DNA from: Candidatus Thermoplasmatota archaeon
GTDB taxonomy: Archaea > Thermoplasmatota > SW-10-69-26 > JACQPN01 > JAJPHT01
Length of the DNA: 64,000 nt
Direction of reading: 5' to 3'
Assembly: GCA_035540375.1 (NCBI GenBank)
Contig: DATLGO010000102.1
Location: forward strand, 1 to 64,000
Shown: positions 4,481 to 62,458 of the stretch, in pieces
How the letters are laid out: each line of letters opens with the position of its first letter
How positions within the stretch are numbered: the stretch's first letter is position 1
Translations under genes and position numbers: made by a program
Notes under the pieces: model-generated
Database searches by the model: none
What the model was told of the DNA's origin: nothing
The model's input: the letters and a program-made list of their open reading frames with translations, nothing else

Positions 4481-5596
4481 TCAGCGGCGCAGGATGAGCG
4501 TGAGGACGTCCTTGTCCGCGAGCGCGTGGTCGATGCCGACGGATTGGTTCTCGAACTTCGCGCTCGGGCCCGAGACGAGCGCGTAGCGGAACTTGCCGCG
4601 GAACTCGCGGTGGAGCTTGTCGCACACGTCTCCGACCGTGGACCCGCTCTTGATGACGAGCGGCTCCTCCATGTCGGCCTCGCCGCCCTGCGGCTTCATG
4701 AAGACGCGGATGAACTTCAGCTCCTCGTAGATCTTGTCCTTCAAGGCCTCGAGGTTGAACTCCTTCGCGGCCGCGATCGGCACCACGGGCCACTGGCGCT
4801 CGTTGAACATGCGGATGGACTGCTTGACGTAGTCCGGGTCCTGCGTGTCGACCTTGTTGAGCGCGACGAGGGCGGGGATGTAGACGCGGTTTCCGGCGAG
4901 GACGTCGACGAGGTCGTCCTGCGTCGCGTCCTGGCGGATCACGACGTCCGCGTTCACGATGCCGTACTCCTTCACCATGTCCTTGACGACCTCTTCGTCG
5001 AGCCCCTTCGATTGGGGGACGGTGAAGTTCACGTTGATGCCGCCGCGCTGGCGCGACACGTAGAGCTTGATGTCGGCCGGCGCGCGGTTGAGGCGGATGC
5101 CGGCCTGGTAGAGCTCGTCCACGATGACGAAGATCTGCTCGGGGTTGAACGCGTCGGCGACGAGGAGGATGAGATCCGAGGATCGCGCGACCGCGATGAC
5201 CTCCCGCCCGCGCCCCTTGCCGCCGGAGGCGCCCCGGATGAGCCCCGGAAGATCGAGGATCTGGATCTCGGCGTGCTTGTAGGTGAGCATCCCGGGAATG
5301 CACGTGAGGGTCGTGAACTCGTACGCCGCGACCTCGCTCTCCGTCCCCGTGAGCTTGTTGAGGAGCGTCGACTTGCCGACGCTCGGGAAGCCGACGAGCG
5401 CGACCGAGGCGTTGCCGCTCTTCTTCACGGCGTAGGCGGGCCCGCCGCCGCCCCCGCCCGAGGCCCGCTTCTCCTTCTCCTCCTTGAGCTTCGCGAGCTT
5501 CGCCTTGAGCTTCCCGATGTGGTGCGACGTCGCCTTGTTGTAGAGGGTCTTCTTCAGCTCCTCCTCGATGGAAAGGATCTGCTCGTCGACACCCAC
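4481..5596 (-). CDS. DRG-family (Obg-like) GTP-binding protein
   Basis: This is a 371-residue developmentally regulated GTP-binding protein, an Obg-superfamily GTPase of archaea and eukaryotes linked to ribosomes and translation. A charged N-terminal helical region with a glycine run at 47-52 precedes the G domain. G1 is GFPSVGKST (69-77), G3 is DLPG, G4 is NKVD and G5 is an IAA/SAK-like segment. A TGS domain closes the protein. The GTG start lies 25 nt downstream of a TATA-like box, which suits a leaderless mRNA. It is convergent with rfcL with only 3 bp between the stops. Confidence 0.94.
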   Translation of the reverse strand: MGVDEQILSIEEELKKTLYNKATSHHIGKLKAKLAKLKEEKEKRASGGGGGGPAYAVKKSGNASVALVGFPSVGKSTLLNKLTGTESEVAAYEFTTLTCIPGMLTYKHAEIQILDLPGLIRGASGGKGRGREVIAVARSSDLILLVADAFNPEQIFVIVDELYQAGIRLNRAPADIKLYVSRQRGGINVNFTVPQSKGLDEEVVKDMVKEYGIVNADVVIRQDATQDDLVDVLAGNRVYIPALVALNKVDTQDPDYVKQSIRMFNERQWPVVPIAAAKEFNLEALKDKIYEELKFIRVFMKPQGGEADMEEPLVIKSGSTVGDVCDKLHREFRGKFRYALVSGPSAKFENQSVGIDHALADKDVLTLILRR

Positions 5597-5620
5597 GGAG
5601 GCCTTGTAGCCCGGGGTCCG

Positions 5621-5627
5621 TTAAAAA
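5621..5627 (-). promoter_or_regulatory. TATA-like box for the DRG GTPase
   Basis: On the minus strand this reads CTTTTTAA in a GC-rich setting. It is 25 nt upstream of the GTG at 5596, so the start codon is probably at or next to the transcription start. Confidence 0.6.
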
Positions 5628-5941
5628 GCTTACAGAGGTCGGCGCGCGCGGTCCGCCGCGGCTCCCGCGAGGCCGCGCGACCGCCCGTCGCCGCGCTCGG
5701 CGGCCTGCGAGGTCGCCCCTTCCGCCTCGCTTTTCGCCGCGGCCTTTCCGACGCCGCGTGGCCGCAGGCCGCTCCGGAGGCGACCCGGGCGGCCCGGAGC
5801 CGTCGCGGCGACGACGCGGATGCCGCGATGCCCGCCCGACCGCCGAGGTTCTTCCGGCGACCGTCGGAGAAACCCTTAGCGTGCGCATGGGGGCCGTCGG
5901 TCCACGCGGCTGGGTCCGCGTCGCACGGGGGAAAACGCAGA
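5628..5941. other. intergenic spacer between divergent genes
   Basis: About 310 bp with no convincing gene or RNA. A CCCTTA stretch near 5870-5877 could be a weak promoter element for the regulator that starts at 5942. Open frames through here are GC-driven and have Arg/Ala/Pro-rich translations. Confidence 0.4.
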
Positions 5942-6616
5942 GTGAAGAACAAGGAAGAAGCGCTGCAGCTCGACACCCGGCGCGCCATCTACGATTACAT
6001 CAAGACAACGCCGGGCGCCCACCTCCGGAAGGTCCACCGCGCCGTGGGCCTTCCCTTCGGCCAGGTCCTCTACCACCTGAACTACATGGAGCGCAACGAG
6101 CTCATCGTCGTGAAGAAGGACGGCAAGTTCAACCGCTATTTCGTGAAGCACCTCATCGGCCGCAAGGAGAAGGACATCATCAGCGTGCTCCGGCACGACG
6201 TCCCGCGCCGCGTCTCGATCCTCCTGCTCTTCCAGCCTCGCCTCACGCACAAGGAGATCCTGCAATACGTCGAGATCTCGCCCTCCACGCTCTCGTTCCA
6301 CCTGAGCAAGATGGTGGAGGTGGGCGTCGTGGGCCGCGAGAACCGCGGCCGCGAATCGTATTACTGGCTCACCGACGAGAAGCTCACCGCGAAGGTGCTC
6401 ATCATGCACCGCGAGAGCTTCAACTCGGACGTCGTCGACCGCTTCGCGGACGTCTGGCTCACCATGAACTACCGCGAGCCGACGACGCGCGAGGAGGCCG
6501 CGAAGACCGACGAGTACATCGCGAAGAAGGTCCCGGACGGCGCGAACCTCGCGCTCGCGGTGCTCCACGGCGGCACGGAGGCCTCGGCTTCCCCCACGAG
6601 GACGCCGGTGGCCTGA
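5942..6616 (+). CDS. tandem winged-helix transcriptional regulator
   Basis: A 224-residue soluble protein with two winged helix-turn-helix domains in tandem (about residues 8-75 and 85-150) and a helical C-terminus. The first wing is recognisable in QVLYHLNYMERNELI, the second in STLSFHLSKMVEVGVV. This architecture is common among archaeal regulators, but no ligand or target can be inferred. The same tandem arrangement occurs at the cytoplasmic end of the membrane-anchored regulator at 29868-31199. The GTG start (MKNKEE) is preferred because upstream in-frame sequence has the composition of non-coding GC-rich DNA. Confidence 0.82.
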   Translation: MKNKEEALQLDTRRAIYDYIKTTPGAHLRKVHRAVGLPFGQVLYHLNYMERNELIVVKKDGKFNRYFVKHLIGRKEKDIISVLRHDVPRRVSILLLFQPRLTHKEILQYVEISPSTLSFHLSKMVEVGVVGRENRGRESYYWLTDEKLTAKVLIMHRESFNSDVVDRFADVWLTMNYREPTTREEAAKTDEYIAKKVPDGANLALAVLHGGTEASASPTRTPVA

Positions 6617-7081
6617 TCAGCGGGGCGCGACCTCGAGGAGAAGCTCCACCTCGACGGGCGCGTCCAGGGGGAGCACGTTGACGCCGACCGCGGCGCGGGC
6701 GTGTCGACCCTGCTCGCCGAAGACCTCGAGGAGCAGGTCGCTCGCGCCGTTCGCGACCTTCGGCTGGTCCGTGAACGTGTCCACCGACGCGACGAACACG
6801 CCGACGCGGACCACCCGCGTCACGCGGTCGAGCGAACCGATCGCCTCGCGCGCCACAGCGAGCGCGTTCAGGACGCACTGGCGGGCGCACTCCTGGCCCT
6901 GCTCGATCGTGACCTCCGCGCCGAGCTTCCCCGTGCGAAGGAGCTTGCCGTGCTGGAAGGGGATCTGTCCCGCCACGTAGAGGTGCGGACCGCTCAGGAC
7001 CGACGGCACGTAGGCGGCGACGGGCTTGGGCGCTTCGGGGAGGGCGATCCCCAGGACCTTGAGGCGGTTTTCAGCGGGCAT
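6617..7081 (-). CDS. ridA: RidA/YjgF/UK114-family protein
   Basis: RidA proteins hydrolyse reactive enamine/imine intermediates released by PLP enzymes; a threonine deaminase (ilvA) lies at 26.2-27.4 kb. The 154-residue translation shows the family ends: GLYVAGQIP-like near the middle (HLYVAGQIPFQHGK), a VGVFVASVDTFTD stretch and RAAVGVNVLPLDAPVEVEL at the C-terminus. About 20 extra N-terminal residues precede the usual start. The ATG lies 7 bp after the stop of the upstream endonuclease-like gene, so the two are probably co-transcribed. It is convergent with the regulator at 5942, whose stop is directly adjacent. Confidence 0.88.
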   Translation of the reverse strand: MPAENRLKVLGIALPEAPKPVAAYVPSVLSGPHLYVAGQIPFQHGKLLRTGKLGAEVTIEQGQECARQCVLNALAVAREAIGSLDRVTRVVRVGVFVASVDTFTDQPKVANGASDLLLEVFGEQGRHARAAVGVNVLPLDAPVEVELLLEVAPR

Positions 7082-7088
7082 GCGCGCG

Positions 7089-7523
7089 TCAACGCCCACG
7101 CCGGTCAAATACCCTTTTCCAAGGCTCGAGGACCTCGACGGGCTTCGCCTCGGCGACGTGGAAGGCGATCCAGCCCACGCGGCCCTCGAGGACCGCCTTC
7201 CGGATCGCGAGCTGATCGGTCGACAGACGCGACGACGCGGCCTTGATCTCCACGAAGTACACCGCGTCGTCCTCGAACTGCACCCCATCGATGGGCTTGC
7301 CGATGAAGCGGAAGTTCTGCGGATCGAAGGGCCAGCCCGCCATCCACGGCGCGAACTGCTCGCTCAGGTTCCCGTAGCGCGTCGCTTGCGACCGACGATC
7401 GGTCTCGAGGCGATCGGCGCGCGCGACCGCGGCGCGCGTCCGCGCGACGAGGATCCACGCGAGAAGCCATCCCGCGACGACCGCGGCGACGAGGAGGTAC
7501 ACGACGACGTCCGGAATCTCCAC
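7089..7523 (-). CDS. membrane-anchored protein related to archaeal Holliday junction resolvases
   Basis: The 144-residue product has one N-terminal membrane helix (about residues 7-26), a short charged coil and then a compact domain with GKPIDGVQFEDDAVYFVEIKAASSRLS. The D-(x)n-E-x-K spacing is a PD-(D/E)XK nuclease signature, and the layout matches the family described as predicted secreted endonucleases distantly related to archaeal Holliday junction resolvases. Substrate and topology are unproven. The start is GTG. The RidA gene follows 7 bp downstream. Confidence 0.75.
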   Translation of the reverse strand: MEIPDVVVYLLVAAVVAGWLLAWILVARTRAAVARADRLETDRRSQATRYGNLSEQFAPWMAGWPFDPQNFRFIGKPIDGVQFEDDAVYFVEIKAASSRLSTDQLAIRKAVLEGRVGWIAFHVAEAKPVEVLEPWKRVFDRRGR

Positions 7524-7589
7524 GATGCGTCAAGCACTCGAAAGGCCTTGAAGGGAACCTTCACGGTCCCGGCCGGGTCTCGACCGCCC

Positions 7590-8009
7590 GTGCCCCGCGC
7601 CGCCGCCTCCGTCGCCCCCGCGCGTCTCGAGCGGTGGAGCCGCCTTGCGGCCATCGTTCTCGGCGCCGTCCTCGCGCTGAGCCTCGGTCTCGCGCTCGCG
7701 GAACAGCCGTGGCCGTGGACGACGTGGGTGCTCTTCGCGCTCCTCGCCGACCTCGCGCTCGTGGCCGGGATCCTCGCGCGCGGGGCCGACGCGAGGCCGC
7801 GCCGCCGCGCGCTCGGGGCCGCCGTCCTCGTCGCCGCGACGCTCGCGGGCGCGTGGTTCTTCGCCTTCGCGCTCTCGGGCGGCGAGGACCGGGCCGTGGT
7901 CGGCGGTGCGCTCGGCGTGGTCGCGACCGCCGCGCTCACGGCCACGGGCCTCCTCGCGATCCTCGATCCGGTCGAGCGCCCGCTCGTTCCGCTAGGGCGC
8001 CGCGGATGA
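7590..8009 (+). CDS. four-helix membrane protein of unknown function
   Basis: A 139-residue protein with four hydrophobic segments (about residues 15-35, 45-62, 72-93 and 103-122) joined by short Arg-rich loops. I recognise no family. It starts at a GTG 66 bp from the divergent endonuclease-like gene. Its last 18 bp overlap the 3' end of the convergent glycosylase gene. There is no visible Shine-Dalgarno sequence. Confidence 0.55.
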   Translation: MPRAAASVAPARLERWSRLAAIVLGAVLALSLGLALAEQPWPWTTWVLFALLADLALVAGILARGADARPRRRALGAAVLVAATLAGAWFFAFALSGGEDRAVVGGALGVVATAALTATGLLAILDPVERPLVPLGRRG

Positions 8010-8873
8010 GGCGAGGCGGGAGGCTCCCGGGGCGCGACGCCCGTGGGCGCCCTCGACGCGCGCCGCGTGGAAGAGGAACTGCTGCGCGAGGCCCGCGTCC
8101 GAGCCCCACCGCGCAAGGGCGAAGGCCTTGAGGTCCCGCGGCGCCTCGCCGGCCTCGAAGAAGCGGTCCGCGACGGCGCGCGCGATCCACCGGTCGACCG
8201 GGAACGCCTCGCCATGCCCGAGCCCGAAGAGCGCGACGCAGTCCGCGACCTTGGGACCCACGCCCGGAAGCGCGAGAAGGGCTTCGCGCGCCTCCCCGCA
8301 GGACGCCTCCCGAAGCGCCTCGAGGTCGCAGTCGCCGCGGGCGACGGCGCGGGCCGTCGCGCGCACGTAGGGCGCGCGGTACCCGAAACCGAGCGAGACG
8401 AGCCGGCGCTCCCCGAGCCGCGCGACCGCATCGGCGTCCGGGAACGCGTGGTAGGGGACCTCGCCGTCGTCGCGTGGCTCGCCCGCGGCCTCGGCGAGGC
8501 GCGCGAGGATCCCTTCGATGCGCGGCACGTGGTTGTTCGCGCTCGTGACGAAGGCCACGAGCGTCTCCCACGGCTCCTGCCGCAGCACGCGGAGGCCCGC
8601 GTGCCGCGCGACCACCGGCGCAAGGACGGGGTCTTGCGAGAGCCGCTCGAGCGCGGCCGGGTACGATCCGTCGAGGCCCAGGTAGCGCGCGAGACGCGCC
8701 CGGCCGCGGCGTCGCGCGCTCGTCCACGCGAGGCCGCCGGGCGCGGTCGCGAGCGTCCAGAGGTCGCCCTCGACGACGCCCGCGAACGCATCGCCGATCG
8801 CGCGGAAGCGGAAGGACTGCCCGCCGAGGAGCGTGGGCGCGAGGAGGACGGGTTCGTCGGTCGCGACGTGCAC
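7992..8873 (-). CDS. 8-oxoguanine DNA glycosylase/AP lyase, OGG1 type
   Basis: This base-excision repair enzyme removes 8-oxoguanine opposite cytosine and nicks the strand. The 293-residue protein has an N-terminal OGG-N-like beta domain (starting around LLGGQSFRFRAIGD) and a helix-hairpin-helix/GPD core. The core reads LPGVGPKVADCVALFGLG followed by FPVDRW; the lysine in GPKVAD corresponds to the Schiff-base lysine of OGG1 and the aspartate in PVDRW to the catalytic Asp. It also shows the NNHVPRI motif typical of OGG1. The C-terminal tail is unstructured and Ala/Arg-rich. The start is GTG. Confidence 0.93.
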   Translation of the reverse strand: MHVATDEPVLLAPTLLGGQSFRFRAIGDAFAGVVEGDLWTLATAPGGLAWTSARRRGRARLARYLGLDGSYPAALERLSQDPVLAPVVARHAGLRVLRQEPWETLVAFVTSANNHVPRIEGILARLAEAAGEPRDDGEVPYHAFPDADAVARLGERRLVSLGFGYRAPYVRATARAVARGDCDLEALREASCGEAREALLALPGVGPKVADCVALFGLGHGEAFPVDRWIARAVADRFFEAGEAPRDLKAFALARWGSDAGLAQQFLFHAARVEGAHGRRAPGASRLASSAAP

Positions 8874-8959
8874 GCGGGGGCGATGGGCGCGCCGCGCCCA
8901 TCAATCCCTCGCCCGCCGCGCAAGGAAATGTCTTTCTCGGGCGCCCGCCTTCCGCGCGC

Positions 8960-9502
8960 GTGAGCCTCCGGAGCTTCGTGGCGGTGGAGGTGGGGCCGCG
9001 CCCCGCCCTCGCCCGCCTGAGGGACGAAGCGGCGGCCCTCGACCGCGACCTCAAGGCCGTCGCGCCCGAGAACCTCCACGTGACGCTCCGGTTCCTCGGG
9101 GACGTCGACGCGAGCGAGGTCTTGGCGATCCTCGAGGCGCTGCGCGAGGCGTGCGCCGGCGTCGCGCCCTTCACGATGCGGCTTCGCGGCGTGGGCGCGT
9201 TCCCGAGCCCGGCCCGGGCCCGCGTCCTCTGGGCGGGCCTCGAAGGGGCAGACCCGCTCGCGCGCGTCGCCGACGGGCTCTCGCGTCGCCTCGGCGCCCC
9301 GGACAAGCCTTTCGCGGCGCACGTGACGCTCGCCCGCGCGAAGACGCCGAAGGGCGCCGCGAAGGTGCCCGCGTTCGTCGCGCGCCACCGCGACTGGCAA
9401 GGCGACGAAGTCCCCGTCGAGCGCATCGTCCTCATGCGTTCCGAGCTCGCCCGCGAAGGTCCAACCTACACGCCGCTCGGCGCGGCCGCGCTGGAGGCGT
9501 GA
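8960..9502 (+). CDS. thpR: RNA 2',3'-cyclic phosphodiesterase (2H family)
   Basis: A 180-residue LigT/ThpR protein. The two catalytic HxTx motifs are visible: HVTLRFLG near residue 40 and HVTLAR near residue 120. Family members hydrolyse 2',3'-cyclic phosphates at RNA ends. The gene starts with GTG, 86 bp from the divergent glycosylase gene, and ends one base before the PAP2-CCA gene. ThpR next to the CCA-adding enzyme is a recurring archaeal arrangement and suggests a shared role in tRNA 3'-end handling. Confidence 0.93.
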   Translation: MSLRSFVAVEVGPRPALARLRDEAAALDRDLKAVAPENLHVTLRFLGDVDASEVLAILEALREACAGVAPFTMRLRGVGAFPSPARARVLWAGLEGADPLARVADGLSRRLGAPDKPFAAHVTLARAKTPKGAAKVPAFVARHRDWQGDEVPVERIVLMRSELAREGPTYTPLGAAALEA

Positions 9503-9503
9503 C

Positions 9504-11618
9504 GTGGCGCTCGACGTCGGGACGGCGCTCGTCCTCGTGAACCTCGTGCTGCTTGCGGGCGGCCTCGTCCTATTCCTGCCGGCGCGCGGCTACCCGACGA
9601 CGCCGCGCGACGCGCGCCGGCTCCTCTCGAAGTACGGCCGATACCTCCTCGTCGCGCTCTTCGTCCTCGCGCTCCACCTCACCCTCGTCGCGCTCGACGA
9701 GCCTTTCCGCTCCGCGCTCGGGCTGACGGACCTCGCGCCCGCGATCGAGCGGTTCGAGAACGGATTCGTCCTCTCGCTCTCCCAGTACTGGTCCCCTCTC
9801 GGCAACCTCTTCTTCAGCTTCGTCTACATCGTGCTCCATCCGTTCATGATCGCGTTCGGCGCGATCCTCTTCGTCGTGAGCGACGAGGAGCGCGCCGCGA
9901 AGGCCGTCCTGCTCTCGTACCCGCTCGCCTACGGCCTCGCGCTCCCGTTCTATCTCTTCTGGCCGGCAACCAACGTCTACCAGTTCTACGGCATCCCCAC
10001 GCCGCTTTTCGACCTCTTCCCCGAATTCTCGTCCATCTACTACCAGGCGACGACGCCCGACAACACCTTCCCAAGCCTGCACGTCGCGATGGCGGTCCTC
10101 ATCGCGAACGCGACGCGCTATTCGCGAAACCGGCCGTTCCGCGTGTTCGCGTGGCTCTACGCGGCGAGCGTCGTCGCGGGGACGATGTACCTCGCGATCC
10201 ACTGGGCGACCGACGTCGCGGGCGGCCTCGTGCTCGCGGTCGTCGTCGCGGGGCTCACGGGACGGGTCCTCTCGCTCGAGCGCGTGGCCCTCCAGCGCCT
10301 GAGGCCCGATCCGGAGGAGGCCCACGCGATCGCCGCCGACGGCGAGGCGATCGTGGAGCACGTGACCTCCGTCGCGCGCGACCTCGGCCTCGACGCGCGA
10401 CCGATGCTCGTCGGGAGCGTCGCGAAGGACACGTATCTCAAGGACAAGGTGGACTTCGACGTCTTCGTGCTCTTCCCGCCCTCGACCCCACGGGAGACGC
10501 TCGAGAAGAGCGGCCTCGCGCTCGGTCATCGCGCGCTTCCGGACGGGATCGAGAAGTACGCCGAGCACCCCTACGTCCACGGAACGTGGCGCGGCCGCCA
10601 CGCGGACGTCGTCCCGTGCTTCGCCGTGGACGACCCTTCGAAGCGTCTTTCCGCAGTGGACCGCACGCCGTTCCACACGCGCTTCGTGCTCGAGCGCATG
10701 GAGCGCGAGCAGCGCGACCAGGTGCGCCTCCTCAAGCAGTTCTGCCGCGCGGTGGGCGTCTACGGCGCCGAGGCCCGCGTGCGCGGGTTCTCGGGCTACC
10801 TCTGCGAGCTGCTCGTCCTCAAGTACCACACGTTCCAGGGCGTCGCGAAGGCGGCCTCGTCGTGGCGGCCCGGCACGTTCCTCACGCTCGAGACGCTCGA
10901 GGGAAATCCGCGCTTCCCTGACCCGCTCGTGTTCCTCGACCCCGTGGACCTCAAGCGCAACGCCGCGAGCGCCGTGAGCGACGAGACGCTCGAGCTCTTC
11001 GCCGAGGCTTGCCGCGCGTACCTCGACCGTCCGGGCCTGACGCACTTCTTCCCGAAACGCCTCGTGCCCCTCACGCCCGACGCCCTCGCGCTCGAGGTGC
11101 GCCGACGGCGCGCGACGCTCGTGCTCGTGACCTTCGAGCGCCCGCCCGACGTGCTGGAGGACCACCTCCACGACCAGCTCCGCAAGGCCGCGAACGCGCT
11201 CTCCGCCCTGCTCGCGCGGCACGATTTCCAAGTCCGCCGCGCGACGACCGACCTCGGCCTCGACGCCCGCGTCCTCGTCGAGGTGCCGCAGGGTCGCCTG
11301 CCCGAATCGGTCGAGCACGTGGGCCCGCCGCTGACCGCGGGCGTCCACGCGTCGCGCTTCCGCGAGACGTGGGGCGACCACCCCGACGCCCTGAGCGCGG
11401 TGTACGAGCAGGACGGGCGCCTGAAGGTGCTGCGTCGCCGCGAGTATCGCGACGCCGCCGACCTCCTCAGGGCGAAGATGCGCGAGGTGGACCTCGGCAA
11501 GCACCTCACGCCGCTTGCGCCGCGCGCGAAGGTGGAGGCCGGGCCGAAGGTCGTGCGCGAGGACACGGCGGCGCTCGTCACGCGGCACGTCACGCGCCTC
11601 AAGCCGTGGGAGCGCTGA
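9504..11618 (+). CDS. cca: fusion of a PAP2-type membrane phosphatase domain and an archaeal CCA-adding enzyme
   Basis: The 704-residue frame is continuous. Residues 1 to about 255 form a polytopic PAP2/Aur1-like domain with PSLHVAMA and the later YLAIHWATDVAGG motif (PSxH and HxxxD active-site elements). From about residue 262 follows a full-length (about 440 residue) class I archaeal CCA tRNA nucleotidyltransferase, with VGSVAKDTYLKDKVDFDVFVLF holding the GS motif and the DxD metal-binding pair. CCA enzymes finish tRNA 3' ends and are normally soluble. No stop lies between the parts, but an in-frame GTG at 10284 sits exactly at the usual CCA start, so separate translation is possible. thpR ends 1 bp upstream. 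Confidence 0.88.
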   Translation: MALDVGTALVLVNLVLLAGGLVLFLPARGYPTTPRDARRLLSKYGRYLLVALFVLALHLTLVALDEPFRSALGLTDLAPAIERFENGFVLSLSQYWSPLGNLFFSFVYIVLHPFMIAFGAILFVVSDEERAAKAVLLSYPLAYGLALPFYLFWPATNVYQFYGIPTPLFDLFPEFSSIYYQATTPDNTFPSLHVAMAVLIANATRYSRNRPFRVFAWLYAASVVAGTMYLAIHWATDVAGGLVLAVVVAGLTGRVLSLERVALQRLRPDPEEAHAIAADGEAIVEHVTSVARDLGLDARPMLVGSVAKDTYLKDKVDFDVFVLFPPSTPRETLEKSGLALGHRALPDGIEKYAEHPYVHGTWRGRHADVVPCFAVDDPSKRLSAVDRTPFHTRFVLERMEREQRDQVRLLKQFCRAVGVYGAEARVRGFSGYLCELLVLKYHTFQGVAKAASSWRPGTFLTLETLEGNPRFPDPLVFLDPVDLKRNAASAVSDETLELFAEACRAYLDRPGLTHFFPKRLVPLTPDALALEVRRRRATLVLVTFERPPDVLEDHLHDQLRKAANALSALLARHDFQVRRATTDLGLDARVLVEVPQGRLPESVEHVGPPLTAGVHASRFRETWGDHPDALSAVYEQDGRLKVLRRREYRDAADLLRAKMREVDLGKHLTPLAPRAKVEAGPKVVREDTAALVTRHVTRLKPWER

Positions 11619-11844
11619 CGGCGCCGCCGGGAGGCGCCCGGGAGCGGCCTTTCCGGGTCAACGTGTCCCGCAAGCGTCCCGCGCGGGCGCGGCCGCGGTC
11701 GCCAGGGGAGGGGGATAAGCCTCGCGGTTTTCCCGATTGGGCGACGGGCCGGAGTCCCGTTCCCCGAAGGGACATCTCACCCACGGTGCATCTTCACCTT
11801 GCGGGCAAGTCGGCCCGCGGGTCAAATCGGGAGAGGCACAAACC

Positions 11845-12111
11845 ATGATGATCGACGAATGGCAGGCGCGCAAGAAGCAGGAAATGCTGAACGACGACAA
11901 GGAGATCAAGGTCAAGATCCCCTTGGACTACCACATCAAGCTCCACACGGTCAAGGTCATCAAGGGTCAGAACATCAGCGAGACCGTGAAGGCCGCGCTG
12001 GCCCACTACTTCCAGGAGATGCGCATGGCCGACGCGGCGATCCCCGCCGCGCCCACAGTCATGGTCACGACGGACGCGCCCGCGACGCGCGAGCGCGACC
12101 TCGTCCTCTGA
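11845..12111 (+). CDS. small protein with ribbon-helix-helix-like core
   Basis: An 88-residue protein. The segment IKVKIPLDYHIKLHTVKVIKGQNISETVKAALAHYF, split here as IKVKIPLDYHIKLHTVKV and IKGQNISETVKAALAHYF, has the strand-helix-helix pattern of MetJ/Arc/CopG DNA-binding proteins, so a regulator role is plausible but inferred. The N-terminal helix is charged. The ATG at 11845 follows a GGGAGAGG purine run by about 6-7 nt, which resembles a Shine-Dalgarno site. The 226 bp spacer upstream contains no other gene. Confidence 0.65.
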   Translation: MMIDEWQARKKQEMLNDDKEIKVKIPLDYHIKLHTVKVIKGQNISETVKAALAHYFQEMRMADAAIPAAPTVMVTTDAPATRERDLVL

Positions 12112-12155
12112 GCGCGTACGATGCGCTCCGGCCCCTTCGCTGAGGGCGGAGGGGC

Positions 12156-12470
12156 TCAGATCGGGATGCCCATCGCCGCGAGCATGACCTTGCCGTCGTC
12201 CGTCGCGCGTTCCGGGCTCCACGGGGGATCGTAGGTCAGGTTGACCTGCACGTCCTTGACGCCCTCGAGCGTGAGGACGGTCCCCTTCACAACCTCCATG
12301 ATCGCGGGGCCCACGGGGCAGCCCATGGCGGTGAGCGTCATGTCCACCTGGACGACGCCGTTCTCGTGCGGTTCCACGCGGTAGACGAGGCCGAGGTCCA
12401 CGATGTTGATCGGGATCTCGGGATCGTAGACGCCCTTGAGCGCGTTGATGATCTCGTCCCGGGAAGCCAT
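12156..12470 (-). CDS. MIP18/DUF59-family iron-sulfur assembly protein
   Basis: This 104-residue protein belongs to the MIP18 (DUF59, SufT/PaaD-like) family, which helps deliver or assemble Fe-S clusters. The hallmarks are YDPEIPINIVDLGLVY at residues 15-30, a central MTLTAMGCPVGP with the conserved cysteine, and LTYDPPWSPERATDDGK near the C-terminus. The ATG is 23 nt downstream of a TATA-like box. It is convergent with the ribbon-helix-helix-like gene; an imperfect GC-rich hairpin between the stops (about 12125-12155) may terminate one or both. Confidence 0.93.
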   Translation of the reverse strand: MASRDEIINALKGVYDPEIPINIVDLGLVYRVEPHENGVVQVDMTLTAMGCPVGPAIMEVVKGTVLTLEGVKDVQVNLTYDPPWSPERATDDGKVMLAAMGIPI

Positions 12471-12492
12471 CAGGCTCCCTGAGTCGAGCCTC

Positions 12493-12500
12493 GCTTAAGA
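12493..12500 (-). promoter_or_regulatory. TATA-like box for the MIP18-family gene
   Basis: On the minus strand it reads TCTTAAGC in a GC-rich spacer, 23 nt upstream of the ATG at 12470. The spacing fits leaderless initiation. Confidence 0.6.
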
Positions 12501-12520
12501 CCCTTTTGGACGCCCGAGGG

Positions 12521-13366
12521 CTATTCGTCGCCCCGGGCCACCGGACGCAGGGGATTCCTTATCCACTCGCTCCAGGACCCCGGGTAGAGCGCGGCGCCCG
12601 GAAGCCCCGCGTGCTCCATCGCGAGGATGTCGTGGGGCGCGGTGACGCCGGAACCGCAGTAGACCGCGGCCTCGCGCGCGGGGAGGCCGGCGAGCACCTT
12701 CTCGTACTTGGCCCGGAGCGCGACCCGGGAAAGGAATCGTCCGTCCTCGCCGAGATTGCCTCCCGTCGGCATGTTGACCGCGCCGCGGATGTGGCCGCCC
12801 ACGGGATCGATCGGCTCCGTGTCGCCGCGGTAGCGCTCGGGGGCCCGCGCGTCGAAGAGCCGCCGGGGCGCGCGCGTCGTCATGTCCCACGTCGTGACCG
12901 TCGGCATGTGCAGCGGCCGCCCCTCGAAGCGGCGCGGCGCGCGGCGCGGCGCTTCGGTCGAGAGCGGATGGCCCGCCGCGACCCACGCGGGAAGCCCGCC
13001 GTCGAGGACCGCGACCGCGCGGTGGCCGAAGTCGCGGAAGAGCCACCAGGCGCGCGCCGCCCAGATCCCTCCCTTGTCGTCGTACGCGACGACCTGCGTC
13101 GCCGCGTCGACGCCCCATCGCGACGCCGTCGCGCGGAAGGCGTCCGCGTCCGGGAGCGGGTGACGGCCCGTCGTCCGGCCGACGGGGCCCGAAAGGTCGC
13201 GGTCGACGTGCGCGTGGAACGCGCCCGGGATGTGGCCCGCGGCGTGCATCGCCTCGCCGGCCTTCGGATCCGTGAGGATGTGTCGGCAGTCGAGAACGAC
13301 GAGGTCGTCGTCGCCGAGCCTTTGCGCGAGCCCGTCCACGTCCACGAGCGTGCTCCAGGACTCCAC
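12521..13366 (-). CDS. thiosulfate/3-mercaptopyruvate sulfurtransferase (two rhodanese domains)
   Basis: A 281-residue tandem-rhodanese protein, the standard length. The N-terminal, inactive-type domain contains VVLDCRHIL and GHIPGAFHAHVD; the C-terminal domain carries the active-site loop CGSGVTA, where CGSGxTA is typical of mercaptopyruvate/thiosulfate sulfurtransferases. It transfers sulfane sulfur to acceptors. The GTG start at 13366 gives MESWSTLVDVDGLAQRL; an open frame extends further upstream but runs antiparallel through the neighbouring gene. It lies 38 bp downstream of the GyrI-like gene and may share its transcript. Confidence 0.92.
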   Translation of the reverse strand: MESWSTLVDVDGLAQRLGDDDLVVLDCRHILTDPKAGEAMHAAGHIPGAFHAHVDRDLSGPVGRTTGRHPLPDADAFRATASRWGVDAATQVVAYDDKGGIWAARAWWLFRDFGHRAVAVLDGGLPAWVAAGHPLSTEAPRRAPRRFEGRPLHMPTVTTWDMTTRAPRRLFDARAPERYRGDTEPIDPVGGHIRGAVNMPTGGNLGEDGRFLSRVALRAKYEKVLAGLPAREAAVYCGSGVTAPHDILAMEHAGLPGAALYPGSWSEWIRNPLRPVARGDE

Positions 13367-13404
13367 GCGCGCCGAGCGCGCGGGCGGAAGAAAACGCTTC
13401 CGGC

Positions 13405-13923
13405 CTACCGCGCGAAGCCCACGAACACGTCCCGCGTCTCCGCGAGCGTCACGGGGTCGCTCACGTGGAAGCGCTCGACGAGGTGGCCGCGCGCGGGCGT
13501 CCCGCGCTCCTCGGCCCACGCGAGGAGGAACGCGAGCGCCTGCGGGAAGCTCGCGAGGTCGCCTTCGTAGCGCAGCGCCACGCCCGGCGTCGCCGGGAGA
13601 TCGAGCGGTTCGAGGCCGTCGGGGAGCCGCGCGTCGGGCGCGACCGGGTAGCCGAGGTCGGCCTCCCAGAGCGCCTCCGCGCGGGCGCTCCTCGGAAGGT
13701 CGTAGTAGACGCCCGTTGCGGGACCCGTCGCGGCGACCTCCGCGGACTCGAGCGCGAAGAGCACCTCGTCGAGCGTCTGGATGCGCGTCCACGGGACGTA
13801 GGGCCCGACGACGCGGCGCCGCGCGAGGCGGACGGGGTCGAGACGCGTCTCCGAGGGACCCTGGACGACGCGGAAGGCGCCGAGGGGCGAGCGGGCGCGG
13901 CGGGGCGGCGTCGCGGGGGTCAC
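13405..13923 (-). CDS. GyrI-like/SOUL-type effector-binding domain protein
   Basis: A 172-residue stand-alone small-molecule-binding domain of the GyrI-like (AraC effector-binding) class. Recognisable pieces are a YVPWTRIQTLDEVLFAL helix, GVYYDLP and VALRYEGDLASFPQALAFLLAWAEERG, with the expected arrangement of two repeats. It carries no DNA-binding domain. The GTG start is 23 nt downstream of a TATA-like box. Its ligand is unknown. Confidence 0.72.
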   Translation of the reverse strand: MTPATPPRRARSPLGAFRVVQGPSETRLDPVRLARRRVVGPYVPWTRIQTLDEVLFALESAEVAATGPATGVYYDLPRSARAEALWEADLGYPVAPDARLPDGLEPLDLPATPGVALRYEGDLASFPQALAFLLAWAEERGTPARGHLVERFHVSDPVTLAETRDVFVGFAR

Positions 13924-13945
13924 GCGCGCCGAACCCGGTCGAGCG

Positions 13946-13953
13946 TCATAAAC
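13946..13953 (-). promoter_or_regulatory. TATA-like box for the GyrI-like gene
   Basis: On the minus strand it reads GTTTATGA, 23 nt upstream of the GTG at 13923. A second, separate box for the divergent plsC-like gene is 18 bp away. Confidence 0.6.
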
Positions 13954-13971
13954 CCGCCCCCCTGGGCGAAC

Positions 13972-13978
13972 GGTTTAT
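13972..13978 (+). promoter_or_regulatory. TATA-like box for the acyltransferase gene
   Basis: GGTTTATG on the plus strand, ending about 27 nt upstream of the ATG at 14005, consistent with a leaderless transcript. Confidence 0.6.
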
Positions 13979-14004
13979 GCCGGGCTTCCCCGATCGCTCG
14001 GGCC

Positions 14005-14697
14005 ATGAGGCCGGCGCGCGAGGGCGAGGACCCCGTCCGTCTCTATCGCGCGATCTATCGCGCCGCGCGGCGGCCGAACGCGGCCGTGACCCGCCTCCGG
14101 GTGGACGGGCTCCACCACATCCCCGAGGAGGGTGGTCTCATCGTCGCGTCGAACCACCTCAGCTGGTGGGACCCGGTCATCCTCGGCACCGTCCTTCCGC
14201 GGCCCATCCATTTCCTCGCGAAGAAGGAGGTCTTCCGCGGGCCGTTCACGAACTGGTTCTTCTCGAGCGCGGGCGCGATCCCGGTCGACCGCCAGAAGGG
14301 CGGCAACATCGAGGCCCTCGCGGCCGCCGTCCGCGTCATCGAAACGGGCGGCGTCGTCGGCATCTTCCCGGAGGGCACGCGCGCCGCGCCGGGTCGCACG
14401 CTGCCGCCGCGCACGGGCGTCGCGCGCCTCGCGCTCGCGACGGGCGCGCCCGTTCTTCCCGTCGCGGTGCTGAGCGACCGGTTCTGGGGTCGGGGTCGCG
14501 CGACGCCCCGTTTCGGCGAAACCGTCTACGTCGCCGTCGGGCCCCCCGTGAGCTTCCCCAGGGACCCCGCGGCCGCGGCCGACGCAAACGTCACGCCGAA
14601 GGTGACGGCGGACATCTTCGACCGCGTGGTCGTCGAGCTCGGGCGCGCGGAAGCGGCCCGCGCCGCGGGCGCCGCGTGGCCGCGGATGAGCTTCTGA
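14005..14697 (+). CDS. 1-acylglycerol-phosphate acyltransferase-like (PlsC family) protein
   Basis: The 230-residue protein has the two PlsC motifs: NHLSWWDP (NHxxxxD) at about residue 50 and FPEGTRA at about residue 125, with a GAIPVDR block between them. PlsC enzymes esterify fatty acyl chains to lysophosphatidate. Archaeal membranes use ether lipids, so the natural substrate here is open; acquisition from bacteria is possible. It is convergent with the membrane protein at 14698, whose stop is directly adjacent. Confidence 0.88.
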   Translation: MRPAREGEDPVRLYRAIYRAARRPNAAVTRLRVDGLHHIPEEGGLIVASNHLSWWDPVILGTVLPRPIHFLAKKEVFRGPFTNWFFSSAGAIPVDRQKGGNIEALAAAVRVIETGGVVGIFPEGTRAAPGRTLPPRTGVARLALATGAPVLPVAVLSDRFWGRGRATPRFGETVYVAVGPPVSFPRDPAAAADANVTPKVTADIFDRVVVELGRAEAARAAGAAWPRMSF

Positions 14698-15549
14698 TCA
14701 CACGGGTACGACGCCCGGCGTCGGCTCGAAGCCGGTCCCGCGCGCGACCCCCGCGAGGCGGCCGTACACGAGCGTCGCGGCGAGGACCCAGAACGGCATC
14801 ATGACCGCGGCGGTGATCACCGTCGCGAAGAACTCCGCGGCCGGGCCCGCCGCGAGCGAGACGATGCCCGCAAGAAGCGCCACGCCCGCATGCGCGACCG
14901 CGAGGGCGAGGAAGACGAGGAAGAGCTTCATGCGGTTCCCCCGCGTGAGATCGAGGCTCCTCCGGATGGACTCCACCGCCCCGAGCCCCTCGAGCGCGAG
15001 CACGGGAAACACGACGGAGAAGGCCACGGCGAGGATGATCCCGGGGACGACGAGGAGCACGAGGCCGAGCGCGACCGCGACGCCCACGAGGAAGAGGGCG
15101 ACGATCGCGTCGCCCGCGCGCCGCATCCCCTGCCCGAGCGCGGTGGCGACCTCCGTGCCGAGATCCGTGGGCGGCACGCCGCGCAGGGCGCGCCAGGCGA
15201 GGACCGCGCCCGCGACGTACGCGACCCCGTTCACGACGACCGAGACGACGAGGATGACCACGCCCCCGGCGAAGTTCGCGATCGCGCGCTCGAGGACGCT
15301 CCCCGGATCCGCCGCGGGCGCGCCCGCGGGGGCGAGGGCGAGCGCGGGAACGCTCGTGAGGAGGGCGGCGAGGGCGAAGAGCGCGGCGAGCGCCACGAGG
15401 TGTCTCCGCTCGACGCCGACGATGCGCTTGATCACCGCTTTCGGCGACAAGGCCGGCGTCGGCCTGTCCACGGGCACGCGGCGGGCGGGCGAACGGTCCC
15501 CGTTCGACGCTTCCTCGTCGGTCACTCCGGAACCTTCGTCGACCGTCAT
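14698..15549 (-). CDS. polytopic membrane protein, GDPD membrane-domain/YciC-like
   Basis: A 283-residue protein with a 45-residue polar N-terminus followed by about six hydrophobic segments. The stretch AVESIRRSLDLTRGNRMKLF, followed by a hydrophobic helix, matches the recurring motif of the membrane domain found with glycerophosphodiester phosphodiesterases and in YciC-like proteins. No catalytic domain is attached. Its role is unknown. Confidence 0.65.
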   Translation of the reverse strand: MTVDEGSGVTDEEASNGDRSPARRVPVDRPTPALSPKAVIKRIVGVERRHLVALAALFALAALLTSVPALALAPAGAPAADPGSVLERAIANFAGGVVILVVSVVVNGVAYVAGAVLAWRALRGVPPTDLGTEVATALGQGMRRAGDAIVALFLVGVAVALGLVLLVVPGIILAVAFSVVFPVLALEGLGAVESIRRSLDLTRGNRMKLFLVFLALAVAHAGVALLAGIVSLAAGPAAEFFATVITAAVMMPFWVLAATLVYGRLAGVARGTGFEPTPGVVPV

Positions 15550-22366: not shown

Positions 22367-22624
22367 GGGGCCTCAGCCCCGTTCGGATTTCGCACGAAGG
22401 CGCACCGCCTTCGCGCGCATCCGCGCCGTAACGCGTGCATTTGCACGATCCGAGGGTACGGCCTCAGCCCCGTTCGCACGAAGGCGCACCGCCCACGCGC
22501 ATATCCGGCGCATCGCGTGCAATTGCACGATCCGAGGGTACGGGGCCTCAGCCCCGTTCGGATTCCGCACGAAGGCGCTGCGGCGCCTTCGTGCTCATCC
22601 GAACGGGTCTATCGACTCCGTCGA
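22367..22624. repeat. degenerate repeats derived from the tRNA-Gln 3' end
   Basis: Three imperfect copies (beginning near 22367, 22447 and 22529) share CCTCAGCCCCGTTCG followed by GCACGAAGGCGC. The AGCCCCGTTCGGA part matches the 3' end of the tRNA-Gln gene next door. Two copies are preceded by GATCCGAGGGTACGG, the core of the 21-bp direct repeat. The third copy continues into a perfect 12-bp hairpin, GCACGAAGGCGC with a TGCG loop (22567-22594). A shorter hairpin with stem CTATCGA and loop CTCCG adjoins the tRNA. Confidence 0.75.
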
Positions 22625-22697
22625 TAGCCCCGTTCGGATTCGAACCGAAGTCGCAGGATCCAAAGTCCCGCATGATTGGCCACTACACTACGGGGCT
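22625..22697 (-). tRNA. tRNA-Gln (anticodon TTG)
   Basis: The minus strand folds into a complete cloverleaf: acceptor AGCCCCG/CGGGGCT, D-arm with GTAGTGGCCAATC, anticodon loop CTTTGGA (TTG reads CAA), and T-arm GGTTCGAATC. The discriminator is A. No intron and no encoded CCA are seen. Its 3' end is the source of the repeat fragments that follow it. Confidence 0.96.
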
Positions 22698-59793: not shown

Positions 59794-59815
59794 GCACGCC
59801 CTGGCCGGAGGCGTG

Positions 59816-60090
59816 CGCGGCGGGGGCTCCTCGGGTGTCCTGCCGGAGTCGATCGTGCTTGCCTGACGTCCGGCCGCTCGCGCGCGGCGGGGATCCTCCG
59901 CGCGTCCGGCCGGAGCCGATCGTGCTTGCCTGACGTCCGGCCGCTCCGGCGCGGCGGGGATCCCCTAACCCCGCCGCGCCTGCGCGGGTGAGGCTCCGCT
60001 CCGGGTTGAATGGAGACCTGCCGAAAATCTTGGACTCGGGGTGCGGAGACGAGAGGGGGAAAGCCTTTCCCCCTCTCGTGCTCACCCCCT
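59816..60090. repeat. composite repeat element A
   Basis: It has three parts: about 2.3 tandem copies of a 67-bp unit (CGATCGTGCTTGCCTGACGT in each, 59851 and 59918), the block GGGGATCCCCTAACCCCGC (about 59956-59974) and, after about 75 bp, a hairpin with stem ACGAGAGGGGG (60049-60079) and the flank GTGCTCACCCCC. The same order of parts, with different unit sequence and length, forms element B beyond tRNA-Pro. No coding content is supported. Confidence 0.8.
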
Positions 60091-60095
60091 TTCTA

Positions 60096-60109
60096 TGGGG
60101 CCGTCCAGA
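60096..60109. repeat. copy of the tRNA-Pro 3' end
   Basis: TGGGGCCGTCCAGA, 14 bp identical to the 3' end of the tRNA-Pro gene (60165-60178), 69 bp downstream of it in tRNA direction. It resembles one arm of an attachment site. Confidence 0.6.
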
Positions 60110-60164
60110 CCGCAGCCGGCCTCAGCCGGCGAGGACCAGGACGGGCCCACGAAGCGAAGCGAAG

Positions 60165-60237
60165 TGGGGCCGTCCAGATTTGAACTGGAGTCAACTGCAC
60201 CCCAAGCAGCAAGGATACCAAGCTACCCCACGGCCCC
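60165..60237 (-). tRNA. tRNA-Pro (anticodon GGG)
   Basis: The minus strand forms a full cloverleaf: acceptor GGGGCCG/CGGCCCC, D-arm with GGGTAGCTTGGTATCC, anticodon stem GCTGC/GCAGT with loop TTGGGGT (GGG reads CCC), and T-arm with AGTTCAAATC. The discriminator is A. No intron or encoded CCA. It sits between composite elements A and B. Confidence 0.95.
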
Positions 60238-60355
60238 GTGGAAAACGCTCGGGTGCAGGGCCGTGAAGCGGCGCGCCCACCATAAAGATTTGGGGGCTGG
60301 CGCGATGGGGTCGCGCGTGGGCGGCGCGCGCGTGGATCCATGCACGTGCTTGTCG

Positions 60356-60781
60356 AGCGCCGCGGGATCCCGCGCGCTTACCGGCCGAGAACCGAGGGTG
60401 CGCTGCTGACGTTGGTCTCGCTCCGCGCCGCGGGGATCCGTCGCGCTCATCGGCCGAGAATTGAGGGTGCGCTGCTGACGTTGGGCTCGCTCCGCGCTGC
60501 GGGGATCCTGCGCGCTCATAGGCCGAGAACCGATCTTACACTGCTGACGTTGGGCTCGCTCCGCGCCGCGGGGATCCTGCGCGCTCATCAGCCGAGAAGC
60601 GATCGTGCGCTGCTGACGTTGGGCTCGCTTCGCGCCGCGGGGATCCCCTAACCCCGCGGCGCTGCGCGAGGTCGAAGCTCCGCTGACGTGTGTTTGGAGA
60701 ATGGAAAAGTAGATTGGGTCCGATTGGGCAGAGACGAGAGGGGGGAGGTTTCGTCCTCCCCCCTCTCGTGCTCACCCCCCT
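60356..60781. repeat. composite repeat element B
   Basis: About four tandem copies of a 69-bp unit (each with CTGCTGACGTTGG and GCCGAGAA; copies at 60384, 60453, 60522 and 60591), then GGGGATCCCCTAACCCCGC (from about 60640), about 80 bp of unique DNA, and a 15-bp hairpin (60734-60748/60755-60769) followed by GCTCACCCCCC. The hairpin ends 13 bp after the rpoN stop and probably also terminates the ribosomal-protein operon. The 69-bp unit is divisible by three, so open frames run through it, with repetitive translations I do not call genes. Confidence 0.85.
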
Positions 60782-60973
60782 TCAGGCGTAAGGCGCCGCG
60801 TCGTCGACGATGTCCGACTGGGACACGATCATCCGACGGCAGCAATACCGCGAGACGCCGAGGTCGTCCATGACGCGCTTCGGCTCCTCGCCGCGCGCGA
60901 CGCGTTCCTTGAACGCCTCGTACGCGGAGCCGATGACTTTTCCGCAGCTGAAGCAGCGCACGGGAATCATCAT
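60782..60973 (-). CDS. rpoN: DNA-directed RNA polymerase subunit N
   Basis: The 63-residue RpoN/Rpb10 subunit, standard size. MMIPVRCFSCGKVIG holds the first CxxC, and SRYCCRRM the second zinc cysteine pair. It is the last gene of the eL18-uL13-uS9-RpoN operon, a well-known archaeal arrangement. Starting ATGATG; the operon neighbour uS9 ends 7 bp upstream. Confidence 0.97.
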   Translation of the reverse strand: MMIPVRCFSCGKVIGSAYEAFKERVARGEEPKRVMDDLGVSRYCCRRMIVSQSDIVDDAAPYA

Positions 60974-62322: not shown

Positions 62323-62458
62323 GCCGGGACCGGGTGTCGGGCGCCGGGTCCGGGACCGGGCGCCGGGCACCGGGACCGGGTGCCGGGTGTCGGGACCGGG
62401 TGTCGGGCACCGGGACCGGGTGCCGGGTCCGGGTCCGGGACCGGGACCGGGACCGGAC
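62323..62458. repeat. G-rich array of GGG tracts (array 4 of 4)
   Basis: About twenty GGG tracts on the plus strand with three-base (ACC/TCC) or four-base spacers, between the divergent promoters of the ribosomal-protein operon and the lipoprotein gene at 62532. This is the most regular of the four arrays. Confidence 0.8.

Follow-up and report, generated by a model that had tools for sequence, protein, structure and literature searches.

Elements A and B, two sequences on either side of a tRNA-Pro gene in a 64,000-nucleotide stretch of archaeal DNA (the window), may well be copies of a short, non-coding and non-autonomous palindromic repeat that has multiplied in an uncultured, Thermoplasmatota-like archaeon by inserting at tRNA gene ends. 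The repeat is present in multiple copies with sharp limits, abuts tRNA ends exactly, retains its structure despite sequence change and occurs patchily among related genomes. The full element is about 170-190 bp long, does not code for protein and consists of a long hairpin, an AT-rich linker and a second hairpin.

Anatomy and setting of elements A and B

The window represents contig C102 of a 3.13-Mb archaeal draft genome (G000), which is 97% complete and in which the archaeal SRP RNA was detected by an Rfam search. The closest sequences to the S9 protein of the window are from Thermoplasmatota, with 75% identity to a Centralia_MAG_189 record, followed by 72% to a Methanomassiliicoccales archaeon and 67% to a Thermoplasmata archaeon. 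Both tRNA-Pro(ggg) and the genes rpl13-rps9-rpoN are located on the minus strand; a low-complexity GC-rich array of CCGGGN units lies at 62324-62456, just upstream of the gene preceding rpl13. Element A flanks tRNA-Pro on one side and element B on the other. The minus strand is the better reading strand, with the onset of the element at the 3' end of a tRNA or of rpoN: element B starts at the rpoN stop codon and element A just past the place where the tRNA-Pro 3' end recurs. The hairpin numbers below follow the plus strand, and the long hairpin 2 comes first in the reading direction.

59815-59963, minus strand: 67-bp tandem array of element A, 2.2 copies (TRF)
59949-59979, minus strand: hairpin 1 of element A, 11 of 11 pairs, includes most of the GGGGATCCCCTAACCCCGC block
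59980-60034, minus strand: linker of element A with an AT-rich patch inside, previously described as unique DNA
60035-60095, minus strand: hairpin 2 of element A, outer stem GGGGGUG../..CACCCC and long inner stem ACGAGAGGGGG, fold of -39.1 kcal/mol, z of -6.9 against mononucleotide shuffles
60096-60109, minus strand: repeated tRNA-Pro 3' end of 14 nt, situated between the tRNA gene and element A, identical at 14 of 14 positions, 69 bp away from the genuine end, expectation 0
60137-60151, minus strand: imperfect copy, in inverted orientation, of the tRNA-Pro 3' end, located in the putatively inserted 69-bp cassette, inverted score 10 (below the cut-off used), direct score 14
60164-60237, minus strand: tRNA-Pro(ggg), tRNA call
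60357-60646, minus strand: 69-bp tandem array of element B, 4.2 copies (TRF)
60632-60662, minus strand: hairpin 1 of element B, 11 of 11 pairs
60663-60722, minus strand: linker of element B
60723-60785, minus strand: hairpin 2 of element B, its first bases overlapping the rpoN stop codon (60782-60784)
60782-60973, minus strand: rpoN, encoding the 63-aa RNA polymerase subunit N, next to element B on its upstream side (PF01194, E 1.5e-28)

An earlier, sequence-only reading of this DNA had assigned the same parts in the same order to A and B. We located the arrays, blocks and hairpins as described there, and TRF agrees with the repeat lengths of 67 and 69 bp. Without the arrays, the two elements are identical at 126 of 146 positions. 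The repeat units had been called different in sequence; they are instead diverged homologues, and the best pair shows 55 of 63 identical positions and a score of 62.5, compared with a shuffle maximum of 31.5. The block GGGGATCCCCTAACCCCGC, treated before as a part of its own, is indeed present exactly twice in the 3.13-Mb genome (up to 2 mismatches; control 0), but it belongs to a hairpin of its own (hairpin 1), which is formed by GCGCGGCGGGG-loop-CCCCGCCGCGC in A and by GCGCCGCGGGG-loop-CCCCGCGGCGC in B, with a compensatory pair distinguishing the two copies. The pattern of hairpin plus GTGCTCACCCC is also found twice in the genome (control 0). Chance occurrence of the parts, which the sequence-only reading had named as a possible objection, therefore does not account for the frame shared by A and B. 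The arrays are local amplifications of the far end of the element; in A, the far arm of hairpin 1 plus flank was amplified. Searching Rfam with the element gave no match at the gathering score.

The spacing between rpoN and tRNA-Pro is about 22 and 28 nt in two distant relatives (L033 and L041) and 544 nt here, and element B occupies this gap. On the other side of tRNA-Pro, a stretch of 69 bp leads to element A and terminates in the exact 14-nt copy of the tRNA-Pro 3' end, which is followed immediately by the first base of hairpin 2. In the simplest order of events, element A would have landed first, directly at the 3' end of tRNA-Pro; the 69-bp cassette with the 14-nt copy would have arrived later, displacing element A from the tRNA, and tandem duplications arising from the far arm of hairpin 1 would finally have produced the 67- and 69-bp arrays.

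Copies of the repeat in G000 and other genomes

Elements A and B are members of a dispersed family with three further clear copies in G000, located 3' of tRNA-Glu, tRNA-Thr and tRNA-Val. A DNA search revealed the copy beside tRNA-Glu(ttc) on contig C41, and inspection of the 3' flanks of every one of the 42 tRNAs detected in G000 yielded those after tRNA-Thr(cgt) and tRNA-Val(cac). In addition, one tRNA-Asn(gtt) is trailed by a related two-hairpin sequence and tRNA-Ile(gat) by a decayed one, which we count as one or two degenerate copies. The tRNA cases thus comprise 4 clear and 2 degenerate ones among 42, and element B adjoins rpoN, not a tRNA. The Glu, Thr and Val copies each open with TGGAAGGGGG, immediately behind the tRNA with no intervening base, and the Thr and Val elements are identical at 151 of 175 positions. 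All copies in G000 are in sense orientation at the 3' end of a tRNA or of rpoN. Tandem arrays are absent from the Glu, Thr and Val copies and are for this reason not a defining part of the element. The sequence-only reading had made its proposal of a genuine element, for instance a non-autonomous mobile one, depend on a second genome copy with the same order of parts, and further genome copies do have this order. Five clear copies of two hairpins and a linker, sharp limits and relatives in another family uphold the proposal, except for the tandem repeats.

The limits of the repeat were analyzed by local alignment of the Pro, Glu, Thr and Val loci. Within the element the alignments scored above all 100 shuffles in 6 of 6 pairs. 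The distal flanks remained inside the shuffle range in all 6 pairs and the 5' flanks in 5 of 6, the exception being Glu-Thr (26 compared with 23); the tRNAs themselves slightly exceeded the shuffle maxima in 2 of 6 pairs, Glu-Thr and Glu-Val. The homology ends at the tRNA end on one side and about 190 bp away on the other. As the element is homologous and the flanks and most of the tRNAs are not, the repeat is sharply bounded and did not travel together with its tRNA. A segmental duplication of tRNA plus element was rejected because tRNAs and outer flanks show no homology beyond shuffles in most pairs.

In each of the 8 copies tested, a set that does not include Val and Ile, hairpin 2 folds with z between -3.9 and -9.6 relative to mononucleotide shuffles. 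For hairpin 1, a script counted pairs on manually defined arms (for Val, over 8 pairs only): across six copies, pairing is seen in 62 of 63 cells, 6 of the 11 pairs are double-changed, and sliding one arm lowers the pairing to between 23 of 57 and 30 of 45. Base pairs are thus kept through double changes, as in a structured RNA; upkeep of a DNA palindrome gives the same outcome, and the pairing fits RNA structure, a DNA hairpin or palindrome correction alike.

Using a covariance model built from A, B, Glu, Thr and Val, we searched 97 genomes. The five G000 copies (B, A, Thr, Glu and Val) scored 109-161 bits, three copies in G003, a related genome from another family, scored 32.6-39.7 bits, and beyond these nothing exceeded 22.3 bits. 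Weak matches of at most 22.3 bits in G041, G066, G009, G062 and G083 were not counted; the one in G066 adjoins the end of what we take to be a 16S rRNA. The same applies to two weak matches in G000, one of which is an antisense reading of the Thr copy. The model detected no copy in G002 or in G001, which belongs to the same family as G000, and the tRNA flanks listed for G001 contain no such hairpin. With the family present in G000 and G003 and absent from G001 and G002, its occurrence between relatives is patchy. No matches to the two hairpin patterns were obtained among viral contigs, and none to element B among plasmids.

The G003 copies are shorter, about 55 bp, and comprise the first hairpin only. 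A 26-nt core of hairpin 2 is identical at 26 of 26 positions between the G000 tRNA-Thr copy and two G003 loci, and when up to 3 mismatches are allowed, 2 of 41 genomes contain it (control 0). At tRNA-Ser(cga) and tRNA-Glu(ttc) of G003 an inverted copy lies at the 5' end as called, or one base off it. The third copy is separated from tRNA-Lys(ttt) by about 100 nt and turns its TGG end away from it. Wherever the repeat abuts a tRNA, the TGG end points toward the tRNA, in sense at 3' ends and inverted at 5' ends.

Proposed mobility of the repeat and alternative explanations

We suggest that the repeat moves by insertion and that its mover would recognize the tRNA gene at its acceptor-stem end, which looks similar whichever end of the gene it is approached from. 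Candidate enzymes were searched in G000 and five related genomes. The Y1 transposase (PF01797) was found in 0 of 6 genomes (control positive in 5 of 14) and reverse transcriptase in 0 of 6. Tyrosine recombinase (PF00589) is lacking in G000 and G004 and present in G001, G002, G003 and G005. Cas1 gave a single match in G000, within a CRISPR-cas-like locus, and none in the other five genomes; a stand-alone Cas1, as expected for a casposase outside CRISPR, was not found in G000. The reading frames beside the G000 Cas1 presumably form a type I-E CRISPR-cas set. Locus L271 (contig C75 of G000) carries a CRISPR-like repeat array and, beside it, a cas set that we take to be type I-E-like (4678-6948 and 7103-15286). 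RAYT/Y1, reverse transcriptase, integrase and casposase were thus considered as movers and none of them fits. Since no candidate enzyme was found in G000, insertion at tRNA ends is argued here from anatomy and distribution. The Glu, Thr and Val copies show no target-site duplication, that is, no tRNA-end copy at the far end, and the full-length G000 copies displayed no complementary ends; near-complementary ends are present in the short G003 hairpins. The missing mover and target-site duplication speak against insertion at tRNA ends, as do two placements, namely element B beside rpoN and the G003 Lys copy, which lies off the tRNA with TGG outward.

The consistent sense orientation at 3' ends in G000 also counts against insertion, because hairpins acting as 3'-end signals of tRNA and rpoN transcripts (terminators, stabilizers or structured RNAs freed by tRNA processing), selected and not mobile, would predict the same. 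Double changes that preserve pairing and AT-rich patches with TTTT after hairpin 2 in A, B and Thr agree with such a role. We nevertheless regard it as rather unlikely: only 4 clear and 2 degenerate cases exist among 42 tRNAs, the same-family genome G001 has none, and two of the three G003 copies are antisense at tRNA 5' ends. A terminator or processed RNA therefore fits the copies of G000 and not those of G003, and the repeat-carrying RNA considered in the sequence-only reading meets the same difficulty, as an RNA linked to the tRNA cannot cover copies on the opposite strand.

Local processes or former integrative elements might also have left such palindromes. Template switching during replication at tRNA genes could form and perfect palindromes without transposition, and would cover both the elements and the wider tRNA-end cassettes described below. 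Within 120 nt 3' of tRNAs, the density of perfect hairpins of at least 10 bp is about 10 times that in the remainder of the fetched loci, direct and inverted self-copies of tRNA 3' ends are common, and the palindrome after the G001 tRNA-Asp extends back into the tRNA end. A local process cannot, however, place 86% identical sequences of 175 bp beside different tRNAs on different contigs, nor yield an identical 26-nt core in another family, which makes this explanation quite improbable. We consider it still less probable that the repeats descend, as decayed attachment sites or element ends, from tRNA-targeting integrative elements of the tyrosine-recombinase or casposon type, although the 14-nt copy of the tRNA-Pro end at the A locus would suit them. 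According to two reports, archaeal integrases prefer tRNA 3' ends (PMC8371274), and casposase duplicates 14-15 bp at a site that adjoins tRNA-Pro and overlaps part of it (PMC6614799). G000, in contrast, has no integrase, its sole Cas1 resembles a CRISPR adaptation gene, the tRNA-integrase junctions fetched from G002 and G003 are without such copies, and the element itself has no att-like duplication.

Insertion of a palindromic repeat at tRNA ends can be compared with several known systems. Like REP/REPIN and MITE-type repeats, the family is short, non-coding, palindromic, dispersed and geneless, but it differs in being tied to exact tRNA ends and in its very few copies. A short conserved palindrome is present in several intergenic copies, as in REP/REPIN, and no Y1 (RAYT/IS200-type) transposase was detected in G000 or the five related genomes. 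Discrete repeats with unrelated flanks were observed, as for MITEs; terminal inverted repeats together with a target-site duplication were not. As the enzyme and terminal-repeat tests failed, we do not file the repeat as a MITE or REP member, though it resembles them in operation. Casposons share the tRNA 3' end as target and the 14-nt target copy at the A locus, whereas the full-length hairpin element lacks terminal inverted repeats and a flanking duplication, and a stand-alone Cas1 is missing. The tRNA 3'-end preference is also shared by archaeal tyrosine-recombinase integrative elements, from which the repeat differs by its length below 200 bp, its several different tRNAs, its two 5'-end copies and the lack of a G000 integrase. 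Group IIC introns insert next to stem-loop sites and resemble the present case in insertion beside a hairpin, but reverse transcriptase was absent from 6 of 6 genomes. The literature searched contained no description of such tRNA-end repeats.

Copies of tRNA ends in the order

In this order, tRNA 3' ends are often trailed by inverted and direct copies of themselves. Direct copies within 250 nt downstream (score of at least 11) were found for 7 of 42 tRNAs in G000, 6 of 40 in G001, 10 of 19 in G002 and 5 of 20 in G003, with 0.50-0.59 expected from swapped pairs; the G002 and G003 figures refer to 19 and 20, mostly best-scoring, of 52 and 43 tRNA matches, G001 includes one spurious call with an intron, and one of the G003 cases apparently lies in coding sequence. 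Inverted copies follow 3, 5, 4 and 0 tRNAs in the same four genomes (0.06-0.72 expected). Among 85 tRNAs from 79 loci around rps9 of other archaea, which are not a random sample, we observed 0 direct and 2 inverted copies (0.24 and 0.61 expected). Perfect hairpins of at least 10 bp number 7 in the 4691 bases within 120 nt 3' of G000 tRNAs, compared with 14 in 102983 bases elsewhere in the fetched loci. A similar enrichment was seen in G001-G003, and other archaea had none in 5520 bases.

It is conceivable, if doubtful, that the hairpin family and the tRNA-end cassettes, which combine an inverted and a direct copy of the 3' end of the tRNA itself, are two products of one order-specific system, a novel mobility mechanism that would recognize the tRNA acceptor-stem end from either side and insert or copy palindromic DNA there. 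tRNA genes are classic landing sites of large integrative elements; a palindromic repeat of less than 200 bp that lands exactly at mature tRNA ends, in several tRNAs of a single genome and on either side of the gene, with none of the usual movers present, would indicate a different way of targeting them. A repeat at a tRNA end alters the leader and trailer sequences encountered by tRNA processing enzymes, and the cassettes across the order offer many natural sites for testing tRNA-end targeting.

Several individual loci were recorded in addition. At four loci of G002 and G003 (L258, L259, L260 and L262), integrase reading frames begin less than about 100 bp after tRNA genes, as is typical of integrated elements, and these loci have no tRNA-end copies. 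In the window (22389-22625), an 84-bp tandem repeat comes after tRNA-Gln(ttg), and its units hold direct copies of the tRNA 3' end; an inverted 3'-end copy beside a palindrome also follows the tRNA. Cassettes 3' of tRNA-Gln, tRNA-Lys, tRNA-Phe and tRNA-Thr from two genera (L137, L128, L221 and L217) have a common core of a TTTTCCGTSRACGCTTTT-like sequence, a hairpin and AAAAGGGT, and for Gln, Lys and Phe the outer arms correspond to the 3' end of the respective tRNA. After tRNA-Asp (L200) and tRNA-Arg(gcg) (L203) of G001, palindromes centered on T-runs reach back into the tRNA 3' end and look as if the tRNA end and its trailer had been copied in inverted orientation.
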